A program made the position numbers and the translations under genes. A stretch of 64,000 bases of DNA from Halalkalibacter suaedae (GTDB lineage Bacteria > Bacillota > Bacilli > Bacillales > Bacillaceae_D), in NCBI RefSeq assembly GCF_017939705.1, contig NZ_JAGKSQ010000001.1, forward strand, positions 248,001 to 312,000. The letters are read 5' to 3'. Below are positions 10,426 to 60,545 of the stretch, one piece after another. The notes under the pieces are model-generated. The model ran no database searches. It was not told the origin of the DNA and saw nothing but the letters and a program-made list of their open reading frames with translations. Positions within the stretch are counted from its first letter, which is position 1, and each line of letters opens with the position of its first letter.

Positions 10426-12195
10426 CTATTCCTCAAAGGAGCGACTAAAGAAAATAGAAAAGGCTGTGCCCTTTCCTGGCTCACTTTCAACACTAATTCT
10501 GCCATGATGTGCTTCAACGAGATGCTTTACAATCGCAAGTCCTAATCCAGTTCCACCTGAGTTTCGACTTCTTGCACGATCCACCCGATAAAAACGTTCA
10601 AAAATTCGCGGAAGCTCACTTTCACTAATTCCAATTCCGGTATCACGTACTTGCAACATCACATTCTCATCTGAATCCCCATCTAATGTGACTAGAATCT
10701 TCCCTCCAGCTTGGGTATAGGTGATGCCATTATTAATCAAATTGATTGCAATTTGTTTGATTCGTTCCGGATCTCCTTTAATTGAACAATCCCCACTTGT
10801 GATTAACTCTAGGTCAATCTTCTTTTCGTTAGCTTTATCTCTTAACAAGACAACTACATCTTCTATAATGGCTTTGACATTCGTTTGTTGCCAATTAAGC
10901 TTGAAATATTGTTGCTCAATTCTTGATAATTCAAGCAAGTCATGAATCAACCCTTGTAAGCGCTCACTCTCTTTATAAATAATACCAAGAAATTTCCCTC
11001 TAAGCTCCTCTGTATGCATCGCCCCATCAAGAAGAGTTTCTGTAAATCCTTTTATTGAGGTAACAGGTGTTTTCAACTCATGAGAGACATTTGCAACAAA
11101 ATCTTTTCTAACTTGCTCGAGCTTTTTTAACTCGGTAATATCATGTAAGACTAAAGCAATCCCTTTTAGTTTTCCACTATCACTAACAACAGGAGCACCA
11201 TACACATCGAAATGACGAATTTCTAATAGAACAGGAAAACTGATTTGTTTTCTTTGTCTTTTTTCAGTTATAAAGACGTTCTGTATGATCTTAATAAGCT
11301 CTTTATGCCTAATGACATCATGATACAATTGATTTACCCAAAGTTCTGTGTTTTCCTCAAAAATAAGTTGACACGTGCGATTAATAAGGGAAATATCCCC
11401 TCTAGTATTTATCAGAATTAGGCCACTTCCCATATTTTCAATTAATGTCTCCATGCGTTCCTTTTGGGCTTGATGGCGCCTAGTTAATTGCTCCAAATTA
11501 TAAGCTAAAACATTGATTGATTTAGATAATTGACCAATTTCATCCTGATTCCCTTCAAAGGTCCTTGCTTTAAAATTACCTTCTGCAAGTTCAATAGCAA
11601 CAGAGGTCGCATTCTCAATAGGTTCAATCATTTGGTTTGCTAATCGATACGTGATAAATACGATAATAACAAAAGCTAATGTAAAACAAATACTAATGAT
11701 CGTCCAAATTGATTGAGTCATTTCTGACATACGATCAGTTGATAAGCCTAACCGAAAATAGCCAATCGTTTCGTTATCTTGTTTAACCCCTACAGCATAA
11801 TAGAGCAACTCGTCTTCAACCGTAGTACTATAACGAATTTTGGAGCCATCGTTCCCATTGATCAGTTCTTGTATTTCAGGTCGATCTAGGTGGTTCTCCA
11901 TTAATATCGGGTCCGTAGAAGACTCACCAACGACGGTTCCATCTAAGGCGATAATTGTAACTCTAGCATCAAGCCTATCAGAGATGATCTCAGCTTGACG
12001 TTGCGAGAGTATTGGATCAATTCCGTCTTTTGATACGAGGTCTGAAGCCAAATGTGCCTCTTTTTCAAGTCGGTCCTTCATATTGTTCTCGTAATGATCT
12101 CCATAAATATGACCAGTGACAAAACCTAGACCAGCCATGACTAGCATTGTAATTGCTAGAACGGATAGGACTAATTTAAAACGAAGTCTATGCAT
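10426..12195 (-). CDS. phoR: Phosphate-responsive sensor histidine kinase PhoR
   Basis: Membrane kinase of the PhoPR phosphate-starvation system. I choose ATG 12195 (MHRLRFKLVLSVL, 589 aa) over an upstream TTG because GAGGAG lies just before it. Order: TM1 (about 6-26), an extracytoplasmic sensor region of about 130 residues, TM2 (near 165-185), HAMP, a PAS domain, HisKA with the phospho-acceptor His in VSHELKTPVTSIKG, and HATPase_c with N (INNGITYT), DTGIGI and GGTGLGLAIV boxes. The start overlaps the phoP stop, so the two are translationally coupled. Confidence 0.93.
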   Translation of the reverse strand: MHRLRFKLVLSVLAITMLVMAGLGFVTGHIYGDHYENNMKDRLEKEAHLASDLVSKDGIDPILSQRQAEIISDRLDARVTIIALDGTVVGESSTDPILMENHLDRPEIQELINGNDGSKIRYSTTVEDELLYYAVGVKQDNETIGYFRLGLSTDRMSEMTQSIWTIISICFTLAFVIIVFITYRLANQMIEPIENATSVAIELAEGNFKARTFEGNQDEIGQLSKSINVLAYNLEQLTRRHQAQKERMETLIENMGSGLILINTRGDISLINRTCQLIFEENTELWVNQLYHDVIRHKELIKIIQNVFITEKRQRKQISFPVLLEIRHFDVYGAPVVSDSGKLKGIALVLHDITELKKLEQVRKDFVANVSHELKTPVTSIKGFTETLLDGAMHTEELRGKFLGIIYKESERLQGLIHDLLELSRIEQQYFKLNWQQTNVKAIIEDVVVLLRDKANEKKIDLELITSGDCSIKGDPERIKQIAINLINNGITYTQAGGKILVTLDGDSDENVMLQVRDTGIGISESELPRIFERFYRVDRARSRNSGGTGLGLAIVKHLVEAHHGRISVESEPGKGTAFSIFFSRSFEE

Positions 12196-16649: not shown

Positions 16650-16758
16650 ATGACTCACAAGTTTCATTATAACGATTAATTACACTTTTGTGAACGTTTT
16701 AGCTTAAACTTCTTTACCAATTTATTAACTCGGATTTAGAAATACACTTGTGAGTCAT
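16650..16758 (-). promoter_or_regulatory. citZ promoter enclosed by a 13-bp inverted repeat
   Basis: On the minus strand TTCACA (16694-16689), a 17-nt spacer and TATAAT (16671-16666) form a good sigma-A promoter. It is enclosed by ATGACTCACAAGT (16758-16746) and ACTTGTGAGTCAT (16662-16650), perfect inverted arms 83 nt apart; the second arm begins near +1 and is followed by TTCTTTTT. The arms could form a fxsA read-through terminator or be paired operator sites. Confidence 0.65.
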
Positions 16759-16769
16759 TTATTAGGTGT

Positions 16770-17165
16770 TTATCTTCTATTCATAATAATGAAATTTCCA
16801 TTTTTGATCATACGATTTATCAATTTTGTTAACAAAACTTTAGCCGTCGCTCTCGTTTGAGGAATTAGCAAAAAGAAACCAATCGCGTCGGTTATAAAAC
16901 CAGGAGTTAGTAGCACAACACCGCCTACTAGGATACATACACCGTCTAGAATAACTCCACTTGGCAGCTGCCCTTGTTGCATCTGTAACTGAGCTAATTT
17001 AATCGTCTGTAGTCCTTCCTTCTTAGCAAGCCAAGCTCCTAGAACACCTGTACCAATAATTAAAGCAATGGTTGGCCAGACACCTAATGTATTTCCAGAA
17101 ACGATTAGAAGAGCGATCTCTAGAGCTGGGACAAGAATGATAAGTATCAGCAATAATCTAAACAT
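16770..17165 (-). CDS. fxsA: FxsA family membrane protein
   Basis: A 131-residue membrane protein of the FxsA family, named for suppression of phage F exclusion in E. coli; its normal role is not established. It begins with a hydrophobic helix (about 2-23), then the family core GTGVLGAWLAKKEGL, a second hydrophobic hairpin (about 72-100) containing LLTPGFITDAIGF, and a basic tail ending RMIKNGNFIIMNRR. AAGGAG precedes the ATG. It lies between pyk and citZ; B. subtilis has further membrane genes here that are missing. Confidence 0.9.
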   Translation of the reverse strand: MFRLLLILIILVPALEIALLIVSGNTLGVWPTIALIIGTGVLGAWLAKKEGLQTIKLAQLQMQQGQLPSGVILDGVCILVGGVVLLTPGFITDAIGFFLLIPQTRATAKVLLTKLINRMIKNGNFIIMNRR

Positions 17166-30197: not shown

Positions 30198-30881
30198 TTA
30201 CAATTCCATGCTTTCACCGCTCTTAAGGAATAAACCTTTTTTGCCTGATAAATTCTCTGTGAACTCGACTGGATCCTGTTCAATTCCAGGAAACGTATTG
30301 TAATGAATTGGAACAACACGCTTGGCCTGTAACCATTCAGATGCAGTTGTCGCATCTTCAGGTCCCATTGTCAAATTATCCCCAATAGGCAGGAAGGCAA
30401 CATCAATGATATTCCGCTCTCCAATGACCTTCATATCTCCAAATAACGCAGTATCTCCAGCATGGAAAATGGTCTTCCCCTCAGCCTGAAATAATATTCC
30501 GGCTGGCATGCCTGTATAAACGATCTTCTGTTCTTCTTCAATAATATAAGACGACCCATGGAAAGCTTGAGTTAATTTAACATTACCAAAATCAAATTGG
30601 TGTGCCCCACCAATATGCATTGGGTGACAACGTACGCCTTGCCAACCTAAATAGGTTGCCAGTTCGAATGTCGCAACAACAAGAGCGTCATTTCGTTTTG
30701 CAAGTGCAACTGTATCTCCAACGTGATCATTATGTCCGTGTGTTAATAAGATAACATCAACCTTTAAAGTATCAGGATCAAGATCGGTTAAAGAATTGCC
30801 AGTTATAAATGGATCAATAATAATTCTAGTCTTTCCTGTTTCAATTAGAACGACTGAGTGACCATGATAACTAATTTTCAT
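30198..30881 (-). CDS. ytkL: Metal-dependent hydrolase YtkL (metallo-beta-lactamase fold)
   Basis: UPF0173-type hydrolase. ATG 30881 ([14 protein letters not shown], 227 aa) follows AAGGAG by 9 nt and gives the family length. Metal ligands are visible: HGHS near residue 7, [10 protein letters not shown] (HxHxDH), a His in [13 protein letters not shown] and the closing His in [10 protein letters not shown]. The substrate is unknown. It is the last gene before the 1.2-kb repeat-filled region. Confidence 0.92.
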
Positions 30882-31045
30882 ATGTATCTGCTCCTTCATT
30901 TAAATAGTTTCTTATTCTGCTTATTATACAATAATTCCTCATTCACGTATTCTTTCCTGCTTATCCCTGAAAGATAACCCTTTAATATTTGTTGATTTTC
31001 CTCTTTCCATTAGGATGGAAGGACCTATTGCTGTAGGAAGAATAG

Positions 31046-31790
31046 GGCTCATAATAATGTTGATTAAGTTCATAACTCTGCAGATCCCGCTCATAACGAT
31101 CCTAAATCCGCTCATAAACCTCTACATCCCGCTCATAATTAGACCAGTCTCTTGAGATACAGAACATTTCGGTGGCTTGAAAAGTGACTTCTTCAGAAAA
31201 GCCTGAGGAACTGGTTGGAATTTGGGTAACATAGCGGGTGTAAGAGTGCATATTGAATAAAAAGCCAGCATTCAATGAAAAATGATCACTTTTTCATAAA
31301 TCTAGTTTCAACACGGATGTTAGTCAAATAATAAAAGTTACGTACGTATCAGTTGCTAGATCGAAGCTGGGCAGGCTCATAATAGTCGGGATTGGGCTCA
31401 TAACTCTGTACATCCCGCTCATAACGATCCTAAATCCGCTCATAAACCTCTACATCCCGCTCATAATTAGACCAGCCGCATGAGAACAGAACATTTCGGT
31501 GGTTCGAGAAGTGTCTTCTTCAGAGAATCGTGAGGAACTGGTTGGAATTTGGGTAACATATTGCATGATAGAGTACATATTTGAATAAAAAAACATCCAC
31601 TTCAATGAAAGTTATCCTTTAAATTCATATATCTTGATTCAGCATCGATGTCAGTAACATGATAAGAGATAGATACGTCTCAAGTTCTAGTTCGGGCTAG
31701 GCGGCTCATAATAGTTAGGATCGGGCTTATAACTCTGTGCATTCCGCTCATAACTATCCCAAATCCGCTCATACTCGTTGCACGCCTTCT
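31046..31790 (+). repeat. Tandem 328/329-bp duplication carrying a 21-bp periodic GCTCATAA array
   Basis: GCTCATAA-type octamers occur at exact 21-bp steps: 31047, 31068, 31089, 31110, 31131; again at 31375, 31396, 31417, 31438, 31459; and 31704, 31725, 31746, 31767. The three arrays are themselves 328 and 329 bp apart; 64 bp from 31084 is identical to that from 31412, and the spacer (GGAACTGGTTGGAATTTGGGTAAC and more) is also repeated. The third unit is truncated. Nothing else resembling a gene is visible in the 30882-32062 gap. Confidence 0.9.
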
Positions 31791-31860
31791 ATGAGAAACC
31801 CACTCATAGCAAGGCTTAAGAGAATGCAACGGTTTCGCTCATTGCTTAAAGGCCATTAAA

Positions 31861-31962
31861 AAAGGGCAAATGGAAATCCACTGGCGAAGCCAGTTAGTTC
31901 CATGCCTTTCTGCGGAAAGCGTGCCCCCCATCCCGGTAGCGTAGTCGGAGCGACTTACCATG
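31861..31962 (+). repeat. Dispersed repeat family B, copy B2 (left end truncated)
   Basis: Matches B3 from GGGCAAATGGAAATCCA onward, with the hairpin ACTGGC-GAA-GCCAGT where B3 has ACCGGC-GAA-GCCGGT: both sides of one base pair changed. The right arm CCCCATCCCG and the flank GTAGC...CCATG are present; the left CGGGATGGG arm is missing. Confidence 0.75.
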
Positions 31963-32062
31963 AAAACTATTCTTTCGTTAGTAATCATCTACCTTCCTTT
32001 CTTATTTCTACATTTGATGATATCGTAAATAGAGATAATCGCATTTAAAAGGAGACAAATTG

Positions 32063-33163
32063 ATGATTGAACAGCGTTTAAGCTACCTCAAACAACACTT
32101 ACAACAAAATGACATTGGCATGGCATTTATCCAAGGCAAAGCAAATCTTTTTTACTTTACTGGATTCCGATGTGAACCACACGAACGTCTCGTTAGCTTG
32201 ATGGTCTTTCCAAATGCTGAACCCTGCCTCGTATGTCCTAATATGGAAGTTTCTCTTGCAAAGGAAGCTGGTTGGCAGTTAGACATCATTGGCTACAGTG
32301 ACCATGAAAACCCTTGGGAGAAAATTCAGCAGTTCACAAGCGATATTTCATTTCAAGGAACCATGCTCGGAATTGAAGGAGAGCTACTTTCATTCTCTAG
32401 AGCAGAACAGCTAAAGAACGCGTTCCCCCTTACTGAATGGACAAAGCTTGACAATATATTCATGGATCTGAGACTTATCAAAAATGAAAAGGAAATCTCA
32501 GTTCTTAGAGAAGCAGCAAAGCTGGCTGATTTCGGAGTCGAAGTCGGAGTTCATGCCCTTCAGTCTGGTCGAACTGAAATGGAAATCCTATCAATGATTG
32601 AATTTGAATTAAAGAGGAAGGGTATTTCTGAGATGTCTTTTGGTACACTTGTGTTAAGTGGCGAGCAGTCAGCAAACCCACACGGGAAACCAAGTATGAA
32701 AACCATTCAAAAAGGGGAATTTATCCTATTTGATTTAGGTGTCGTTTTAGAAGGGTATTGTTCTGACATTACTAGAACTGTTGGGTTTGGGGCAATTTCT
32801 GATGAGCAACAGAAGATCTATAACACGGTCTTAAAGGCACAGCTAGATACACTCGAAATGTGCAAGGAAGGTACAATTCTCGGAGAACTTGATAGAAAAG
32901 CTCGTTCGATTATCACAGATGCCGGCTATGGGGATTTTTTCCCTCACAGAATTGGACATGGTCTTGGAACTGAAGTTCATGAGCTCCCCTCTCTGAATGA
33001 AAATAACAGTGATGTGTTAAAGGTCGGCATGTGCTTTACGATTGAGCCAGGAATTTATGTGCCGAGTGTCGGCGGCGTCCGGATTGAAGACGATGTACTG
33101 ATTACTACTGATGGATACGAGTGCTTAACAGCCTATCCAAAAGAATTGCAAATGATTAAATAA
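32063..33163 (+). CDS. M24 family metallopeptidase (Xaa-Pro dipeptidase-like)
   Basis: Predicted cytoplasmic aminopeptidase P/prolidase. ATG 32063 follows AGGAG by 8 nt (366 aa); a TTG one codon earlier is less well placed. An N-terminal creatinase-like domain (about 1-125) is followed by the pita-bread domain with all five metal ligands in order: Asp in LFDLGVV, Asp in CSDITRT, His in HRIGHGLG, Glu in TIEPGIY and Glu in RIEDDVLIT. It resembles B. subtilis PapA/PapB, but I cannot say which. It stands alone, with its own terminator. Confidence 0.88.
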   Translation: MIEQRLSYLKQHLQQNDIGMAFIQGKANLFYFTGFRCEPHERLVSLMVFPNAEPCLVCPNMEVSLAKEAGWQLDIIGYSDHENPWEKIQQFTSDISFQGTMLGIEGELLSFSRAEQLKNAFPLTEWTKLDNIFMDLRLIKNEKEISVLREAAKLADFGVEVGVHALQSGRTEMEILSMIEFELKRKGISEMSFGTLVLSGEQSANPHGKPSMKTIQKGEFILFDLGVVLEGYCSDITRTVGFGAISDEQQKIYNTVLKAQLDTLEMCKEGTILGELDRKARSIITDAGYGDFFPHRIGHGLGTEVHELPSLNENNSDVLKVGMCFTIEPGIYVPSVGGVRIEDDVLITTDGYECLTAYPKELQMIK

Positions 33164-60305: not shown

Positions 60306-60545
60306 TAAAATAAAAAAAGACCCCTCCCTATAAAAGGGACGAGGACCTCGCGTTACCACCCTTGTTGAAGAAAAGAGAATAATCTTTTCAACCACTTAAT
60401 TACGATAACGGTATTGACCGTTCTTCTCAAATAAAAGAAAAGCTCCAGGCTGTAATTCATCCATATCCTATGCACTGATTCACACCACCATCAGCTCTCT
60501 AAAGCAGGGAAGACAGGATTACTTCGACCATTCAACGCTTATTAT
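60306..60545 (-). promoter_or_regulatory. T-box riboswitch (tyrosine) upstream of the tyrosyl-tRNA synthetase
   Basis: Minus-strand leader of about 240 nt. Stem I ends around GAATTACAGCC with specifier TAC (Tyr) at 60454-60452. The T-box core GGGTGGTAACGCG is at about 60362-60348, followed by the terminator stem GGTCCTCGTCCC...GGGAGGGGTC and TTTTTTT. Uncharged tRNA-Tyr pairing with TGGT would favour antitermination. A TTGACA at 60594-60589 may be the -35. Confidence 0.93.

Follow-up and report, generated by a model that had tools for sequence, protein, structure and literature searches.

The DNA analysed here, called the window, is a stretch of 64,000 nucleotides from Halalkalibacter suaedae. 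Three arrays of GCTCATAA-type octamers occupy window positions 31047-31774, which correspond to C11:279047-279774 of its own genome, G000. They sit in the gap of a divergent gene pair, where no listed ORF of 80 aa or more covers them. The features of the region are as follows.

30198..30899, minus strand: left neighbour gene from the ORF list, which by the look of its sequence we take to be a metallo-hydrolase
31047..31138, plus strand: array 1, five octamers (GCTCATAA four times, GTTCATAA once) at exact 21-bp steps
31142..31269, plus strand: spacer of unit 1, matching the spacer profile with E 1.2e-20 (this spacer is itself among the 28 rows of the profile)
31213..31269, no strand assigned: imperfect inverted repeat inside the unit-1 spacer (GGTTGG ... 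CCAGC)
31375..31466, plus strand: array 2, five exact octamers at 21-bp steps
31485..31591, plus strand: spacer of unit 2, matching the spacer profile with E 5.3e-10
31704..31774, plus strand: array 3, four octamers, two of them exact and two (GCTTATAA, GCTCATAC) with one mismatch each
32060..33163, plus strand: right neighbour gene from the ORF list, presumably Xaa-Pro peptidase-like by the look of its sequence

The array starts lie 328 and 329 bp apart. The spacers of units 1 and 2 are 83% identical over 105 nt (31159-31263 versus 31486-31590), and the third unit is an array alone, with no spacer behind it. The original prediction had described octamers recurring five, five and four times at exact 21-bp steps, in units 328 and 329 bp apart whose remainder is duplicated as well; re-reading the coordinates bears this out, except that its start at 31046 is one base early and should be 31047. 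The unit-1 spacer is an element-specific sequence common to dispersed copies elsewhere in the genome. Its inverted repeat is the GGCTGG...CCAGCC block of the element, where, at many other G000 loci among the matches listed, the spacer profile also matches the opposite strand. Behind the arrays, at window 31860-31950 and again at about 16680-16790 of stretch L058, lies a second dispersed repeat (AAGGGCAAATGGAAATCCAC...CCAGTTAGTTCCATGCC...CCCATCCCGGTAGCGTAG); a third kind, CTTTCCGCGGG...CCCGCAGGAGTC, adjoins an array in stretch L049.

The original prediction had proposed searching the genome for the 21-bp-phased octamer. The search returned 398 octamer pairs at exactly 21 bp in G000 (71 forward, 327 reverse) and 262 triples at the same step, against 0 pairs for a control in which the octamer was read backwards. 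In a sample made up of the window and 20 stretches around octamer places, chains of at least three octamers number 124 in at least 37 loci, with five octamers in 98 chains, four in 16, three in 9 and six in 1. Consecutive exact octamers less than 60 bp apart in this sample are spaced by 21 bp (388 times), 20 bp (once) or 41-42 bp (25 times), and no other spacing occurs. Most loci are tandem series with a period of mostly about 238 bp (range 146-330), apart from two gaps of more than 1 kb. The spacers are homologous between loci and carry the imperfect inverted repeat with GGCTGG and CCAGCC ends. By simple ORF picks the loci are nearly all intergenic; short reading frames run across many arrays, a 217-aa frame overlaps an array in L047, and a 422-aa frame starts within an array edge in L049. 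In the congener G017, the orthologous site of one convergent gene pair (proteins 56% and 70% identical) has no array, and only about 60 bp with a terminator separate the genes, compared with five arrays in G000. Array loci are dense at C11:636-829 kb (L041-L051), often one per 5-10 kb, and the genes of that region have few orthologs in the compared 400 kb of G017.

Seventy-three pairs of neighbouring tandem units in G000 were aligned, pairs less than 75% identical being left out. Octamers differ at 53 of 2844 sites (1.9%), the 13-bp gaps between them at 416 of 3673 (11.3%) and the spacers at 1213 of 9729 (12.5%), so that octamers diverge six times more slowly than gaps; the gaps evolve like spacer, while octamers and step are held. 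Indel events number 30 in arrays versus 229 in spacers. Because the arrays had been chosen by their octamers, a search by spacer alone was also run over the fetched stretches (E<1e-9); it found 92 of 95 spacers next to arrays with four or more octamers, and the remaining three next to arrays of three. Judged from these aligned units, the octamers are under purifying selection in place.

Protein coding was considered and rejected. Two of the six reading frames are always stopped, by the TAA of the core and, on the opposite strand, by TGA. For the remaining four frames, the arrays with a stop number 41, 72, 43 and 42 of 98, against shuffled-gap means of 55, 58, 47 and 57 (SD 4-6). Two frames are thus stopped less often than the shuffles (41 versus 55, SD 4, and 42 versus 57, SD 5), which a weak consensus of the gap itself may explain, one is stopped more often (72 versus 58) and one about equally (43 versus 47). 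No frame is open in most arrays in the way that a gene would require, unit lengths, about 238 bp but also 187-330 bp, are not kept to multiples of three, and relatives use steps of 20 bp. The suggestion of a heptad-coding repeat in decay therefore falls, with stops in 41 to 98 of 98 arrays depending on the frame. Simple slippage, which the original prediction would have accepted had the 21-bp step not been conserved in other copies or relatives, is rejected as the whole story because unlinked loci and other genera show the step and the core again; as a plain VNTR the family would sit badly with the divergence of core and gap (1.9% versus 11.3%) and with the recurrence of the core in 37 loci. 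The unit is, as had been said, not CRISPR-like: a CRISPR repeat is 21-50 bp long with unique spacers, and here an 8-bp core alternates with 12-13-bp gaps partly shared between units.

Arrays of the same kind, with a step of 20 or 21 bp, occur in related Bacillales. The exact triple is absent from 40 other genomes of the window's GTDB family. Among 398 genomes sampled from the class, 13 have an octamer pair, G000 included, and seven of the 13 have one pair only; in family f18, a pair occurs in 63 of 261 genomes, with up to 377 pairs in genus g97. The reversed control is positive in three genomes of the class sample, one of which (G255) has 92 pairs, and in nine genomes of f18, six of which have 9 to 107 pairs. 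These positives are real arrays of another core. The unit in G255 consists of AATACTCGCGGA and about nine bases at a 21-bp step (for example at C19:11234-11745, 92 pairs). A search of the order with a degenerate core was positive in 41 of 249 genomes and turned up species-specific cores such as GCTCATAG, GCTCGTAA, GCTCGCAA and ACTCGTGA; its control is not clean, because the reversed version is positive in 22 genomes. A scan of GTDB contigs gave 31 stretches with arrays or repeats, in Sporosarcina, Lysinibacillus, Ureibacillus, Sutcliffiella, Oceanobacillus and also Bacillus methanolicus; several further stretches, from Bacteroidales, an archaeon and elsewhere, are ordinary tandem repeats. Octamers in 40 stretches from 11 other genomes, picked around places among the matches listed, lie 20-21, 39-42 and 60-63 bp apart, and the GTDB loci additionally show distances of 18, 19 and 43 bp. 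Arrays are long and locally homogeneous in some species, and their number within one genus ranges from 0 to 377 pairs. The search of relatives that had been proposed thus finds phased arrays again in other Bacillales genera at 20 or 21 bp. The accompanying idea that all octamers face one side of the helix does not generalize, because several species use 20 bp.

The 224 proteins encoded next to 119 array loci, for which 17 stretches were taken from the 31 of the GTDB scan, were compared all against all. One standout family emerged, with nine entries representing five genes, each from a different genome. Families ranking after it were seen in four and three genomes, and a number of the pairs are just orthologous loci in related species. 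The standout family is NERD (PF08378), which matched the four of its five proteins that were run with E 3e-21 to 5e-11. A Scopulibacillus protein encoded directly after an array, in a stretch (L013) outside the loci of this comparison, also matches PF08378. No Pfam model other than PF08378 matched the five NERD proteins, and none of them proved to be a Y1 (HUH) transposase. The G000 gene (C1:96682-97671, product of 330 aa) lies between GCTCATAA arrays. NERD genes likewise lie between two arrays in G581, G589 and S. aquimarina, and in G576 an array directly follows the gene. In G000 and G576 the NERD stop codon falls within the first octamer of the array behind. In G000 the units adjoining the NERD gene share their spacer with the dispersed units, so the two are copies of one element; the shared 238-bp unit speaks for an origin of the sites probably by copying and not by convergence.

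The aligned NERD proteins are conserved at the C-terminal end and show two CxxC pairs and a D-xn-ExK motif, the latter absent in G576; among 60 NERD proteins, 57 have D-xn-ExK and 58 the two CxxC. The N-terminus is a predicted PD-(D/E)XK-type nuclease domain. The C-terminus may be HTH-like, to judge from sequence and a structure model of the Scopulibacillus protein, which was built from two sequences and is poor, with a mean pLDDT of 41. In that model the C-terminal 80 residues or so (pLDDT blocks of 51-78) form strands, three helices and a strand, an arrangement that is at most compatible with a zinc ribbon and a winged helix. When solved structures were searched by profile, the only matches were weak ones to zinc ribbons, the best being ribosomal L37Ae (E 0.009).

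The linkage between gene and array was then measured without reference to any core. An alignment of NERD proteins (A1), built from GCTCATAA-type loci with three of its five proteins from Sporosarcina-type GCTCATAA loci, matches 237 of 261 genomes of f18, often more than once, and 28 of 41 genomes of the window's family. We took 60 loci, 30 from each family and the best one or two per genome, and searched them for any octamer chained at 19-22 bp, the core being left unspecified; the detector requires four units, among them three exact octamers, and overlooks arrays that are short or decayed. Arrays occur at 43 of the 54 loci with A1 E<1e-60 (52 genomes) and on both sides at 23 of the 54. By family, this amounts to 26 of 30 loci in f18 and 17 of 24 in the window's family, three of the latter both-sided. 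Eleven of the 54 close loci, the second copy in G000 (L217) among them, have no array at threshold, and the six weaker loci (A1 E>=1e-60) have none.

Ordinary 4-kb tiles served as control. Only one of 129 (100 of them from G017) holds an array, and that tile bears the core of the NERD locus in its own genome. Half-overlapping tiles of array-rich genomes give a background of 25 of 180 (G246) and 26 of 108 (G622), with arrays at both ends in 2 of 180 and 0 of 108, respectively, and in 0 of 180 tiles of a further control. Chains of the GCTC/GATC type run forward relative to the NERD gene in 62 cases and in reverse in none. The cores at NERD loci are diverse, including GCTCATAA, GCTCATAG, GCTCTATC, GCTCAAGA, GCGCGCAA, GTCCAAAG, GCCGAAAA, CGATGTAT and others. 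In genus g97, at least 20 GCTCATAA pairs are found in nine of the nine genomes whose best NERD match has E<=1e-139, compared with five of 57 others; these counts cover 66 of 68 genomes, the two omitted having no pair, and are inflated by species relatedness.

Paralogs within one genome have cores of their own. Genome G622 has at least eight matches to A1; six of the loci were read, and five have arrays, with five different cores: GCTCAAGA, AACGAGCG, GAGAACTC, ACGCATAA and TTACCACC. In 240 kb of this genome, 10 of 14 dispersed arrays match one of the five paralog loci, at least two of the ten in part of the core only (L238, L246), and four match none of those read. Foreign NERD loci share such an octamer in about 11% of comparisons. 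The core at the NERD locus is also the core of dispersed arrays in G017, where the one dispersed locus in 400 kb carries it in six of six chains and at most one foreign NERD locus has it, and in G246, where GCTCATAG is the core at the NERD locus and likewise in all 16 dispersed arrays seen in 400 kb. With G622, the agreement extends to three genomes. Genome G246 is weak evidence on specificity, because between 3 and 26 of 59 foreign NERD loci contain its octamers as well.

Across 43 loci, core similarity correlates with protein similarity (Mantel r 0.48, reached in 0 of 2000 permutations, a result inflated by species relatedness), and among protein pairs less than 45% identical it hardly correlates with identity (r 0.11, 0.07). 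In a tree, the G000 protein groups with its own family and not with the Sporosarcina proteins that have the same core. Core identity therefore does not simply follow protein phylogeny, and the notion that the core just tracks the NERD tree is weakened. In two relatives, weak matches to the G000 element were inspected and put down to chance.

In G000, 27 loci have both neighbours called: 14 have both in the same sense as the array, 8 are convergent and 5 divergent, and none has both opposed to the array. The 43 array loci of 11 other genomes comprise 24 convergent, 9 same/same, 6 opposed/opposed, 3 divergent and 1 open-ended. A terminator-like structure separates the upstream same-sense gene from the array at 21 of 26 loci in G000 and 21 of 34 elsewhere, counts that come from a home-made scan with no control set, on gene calls that are simple ORF picks. 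The original prediction had also asked how the phased arrays are oriented relative to the origin. In G583, a single contig of 3.2 Mb whose origin we place near its end on the assumption of B. subtilis gene order, 17 of 21 loci, all eight convergent ones included, are oriented with the replication fork, and in G000 orientation agrees with local GC skew at 30 of 37. The opposite orientation holds for four of four loci in G576, four of five in G123 and two of three in G428, where one of three agrees with skew. Orientation polarity is thus real within some genomes, with a sign that is not universal, and a general replication polarity is discarded. Arrays in G000 crowd the left arm by the origin (C11 636-829 kb, C1, C28); dnaA is at C28:9689, and stretches of C28 and C1 match the origin end of G017. 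An origin-anchoring role, which this crowding brought to mind, was rejected, since in G583 the arrays are spread along the chromosome.

We think it probable that the scattered arrays are the DNA sites to which a chromosomally encoded NERD-family protein is cognate, in an arrangement resembling that of RAYT and REPIN with unrelated parts. The C-terminal domain of the NERD protein would read the octamer, one molecule per 20-21 bp or two helical turns, so that an array of direct repeats would align neighbouring molecules head to tail in contact. We infer that the nuclease binds and cuts at or near the arrays and that the units would thereby be copied, locally multiplied and spread to other intergenic sites, the outcome being a nuclease with a private repeat family. 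More tentatively, it is possible that in this clade of Bacillales NERD proteins each paralog reads its own octamer and seeds and maintains its phased arrays across the chromosome, and that the specificity of its DNA-reading end shifts quickly enough for a single genome to contain several independent nuclease-array pairs. Points against this role for NERD include the 11 close loci that have no array, the background of arrays in array-rich genomes, the tree, G576, which has arrays though its protein lacks the catalytic segment, and the recurrence of other neighbour families in up to four genomes. The protein-binding platform of the original prediction gains indirect support from the constraint on the octamer, from the 20/21-bp step in several genera and from the presence of a candidate protein between arrays.

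The main rival, which we consider rather unlikely, is a platform serving the host, in which NERD or another protein bound to the arrays has a chromosomal task where genes end, such as forming a boundary of convergent genes or relieving supercoils, the spreading of arrays being merely where the sites came from. The convergent setting of 24 of 43 loci in other genomes against 3 divergent, the terminator-like structures ahead of arrays (21 of 26 and 21 of 34), the orientation with replication in G583 (17 of 21) and, by skew, in G000 (30 of 37), and the purifying selection that appears to act on octamers in place would all suit such a role. It accords poorly with a range of 0 to 377 pairs within one genus, with the reversed sign of orientation in G576 (4/4) and G123 (4/5) and with the different cores kept by paralogs of one genome; the gene-end bias is weak in G000 (8 convergent, 5 divergent) and would be left equally by selection against harmful insertions. 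A role in defence, with arrays restraining the nuclease or marking self while DNA lacking or carrying arrays is attacked, seems improbable. Phage-defence proteins do include NERD domains, the NERD protein has weak partial matches to the MAD6 and PglW models, and the patchy distribution and quickly diversifying, multi-paralog specificity would fit. Against this, no full-length model matched when three NERD proteins were compared with PADLOC and five with NCBIfam, a scan of viral contigs with one protein, sensitive to close relatives only, gave no relative, and a plasmid scan gave two weak matches.

A passive satellite, that is, tandem repeats grown by slippage with no partner protein and an incidental NERD linkage, is already disfavoured and, we judge, highly improbable. 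The long, locally homogeneous arrays of some species and the tandem 238-bp units, which resemble local duplication, are what it would predict; constraint confined to the octamer, the lack of off-step distances, paralog-specific cores and the both-sided linkage at 23 of 54 close loci versus 2/180, 0/108 and 0/180 control tiles are not. Finally, we find it hard to credit that the array acts as RNA, transcribed and read by an RNA-binding protein or small RNA. Where the context is co-directional the array lies in the sense of the genes in 14 of 14 cases in G000 and 9 of 15 elsewhere, and core variants between species are often transitions, both of which such an element could explain. It would have no need of an exact two-turn step, and of the 60 loci whose upstream gene runs in the same sense, 42 have a terminator-like structure ahead of the array (no control set). 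RNAalifold gave no consensus fold for the spacer, the sole Rfam match in the window lies away from the arrays, and in L043, L049 and L055 nothing at the arrays exceeded the gathering score. That sole match is a T-box leader (RF00230, 132.9 bits) at window 60332-60544 on the minus strand; the array-bearing stretch L043 contains a c-di-GMP-I riboswitch at 10708-10796, also on the minus strand.

Among known systems, RAYT genes have flanking repeats and species-specific repeat families. As summarized in PMC3116915, they resemble the present case in that a nuclease gene goes together with copies of a short repeat that is also scattered between genes, and in that repeat groups belong to particular enzymes; here the dispersed repeat borders the nuclease gene at 43 of 54 close loci, at 23 of them on both sides. 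The differences lie in the parts. The enzyme here is a NERD protein of predicted PD-(D/E)XK type and RAYT is a Y1/HUH transposase; REP sequences are palindromic or inverted doublets, whereas the cores here are non-palindromic octamers directly repeated in a 20-21-bp phase, with an inverted repeat, an imperfect one, only in the G000 spacer. By analogy, then, the array-NERD pair would work like a RAYT/REPIN system, of which it is no member.

Plasmid iterons and centromere arrays of the ParR/TubR type consist of direct repeats about two helical turns apart that are bound head to tail, and they occur once or a few times per replicon beside rep or par genes. The present arrays differ in numbering dozens per chromosome, with one set adjoining a nuclease gene. 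The TAACTGA repeats of Beggiatoaceae, as presented in the abstract of PMC4679880, are similar in being direct intergenic repeats of a short conserved heptamer, patchy across distant taxa; they differ in standing mostly just before start codons, and the abstract names no DNA-cutting partner. Non-CRISPR interspaced arrays (Altae-Tran et al. 2023, PMC10910872) are likewise associated, apparently without cas genes, with the gene of a nucleic-acid enzyme, and differ in their hypervariable spacers and in the small RNAs that cover them. Section 15 of that paper describes two systems, an AddB-like nuclease/helicase and a GGDEF locus, and NERD is absent from the non-CRISPR arrays treated there; in the main text NERD occurs once, in the legend of a figure about putative CRISPR auxiliary genes.

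NERD domains have been on record for some two decades. Among the open-access papers listed we found no report of these arrays or of a link between NERD and arrays, and no natural DNA target for the family; PMC9040797 (2022) states that, to the knowledge of its authors, the role of NERD in bacteria had never been studied. The evidence points to an undescribed partnership of a nuclease and its DNA landing sites. The genomes themselves would display the likely NERD target, in some species as dozens of sites per chromosome and with different words per paralog, so that an unmodified gene together with its own array would suffice for a direct test of what NERD does. If the proposed reading is true, a second, unrelated enzyme class would join those bacterial nucleases that have a private repeat family, and a DNA-reading code could be worked out from dozens of natural nuclease/site pairs.

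Several minor observations concern the NERD genes and their surroundings. A GGDEF/EAL gene adjoins the NERD arrays in G000 (L052, 9109-10794), and a transporter-like family adjoins arrays in three genomes (L079, L143, L009); these neighbours recall the GGDEF-MFS array locus in section 15 of PMC10910872. According to PMC12802215, a NERD gene adjoins upp in B. methanolicus MGA3. Other NERD matches in G000 lie at C27:252406-253380 (L217, with a stop and no array at threshold) and, more distantly related, at C9:9918-10787. The S. aquimarina copy (L016, 3925-4971, minus strand) is broken in its N-terminal part, and NERD genes that are split or interrupted, with partial matches adjacent, occur also in G003, G004, G016, G021, G022, G024 and G036, as expected of a family subject to gain and loss.
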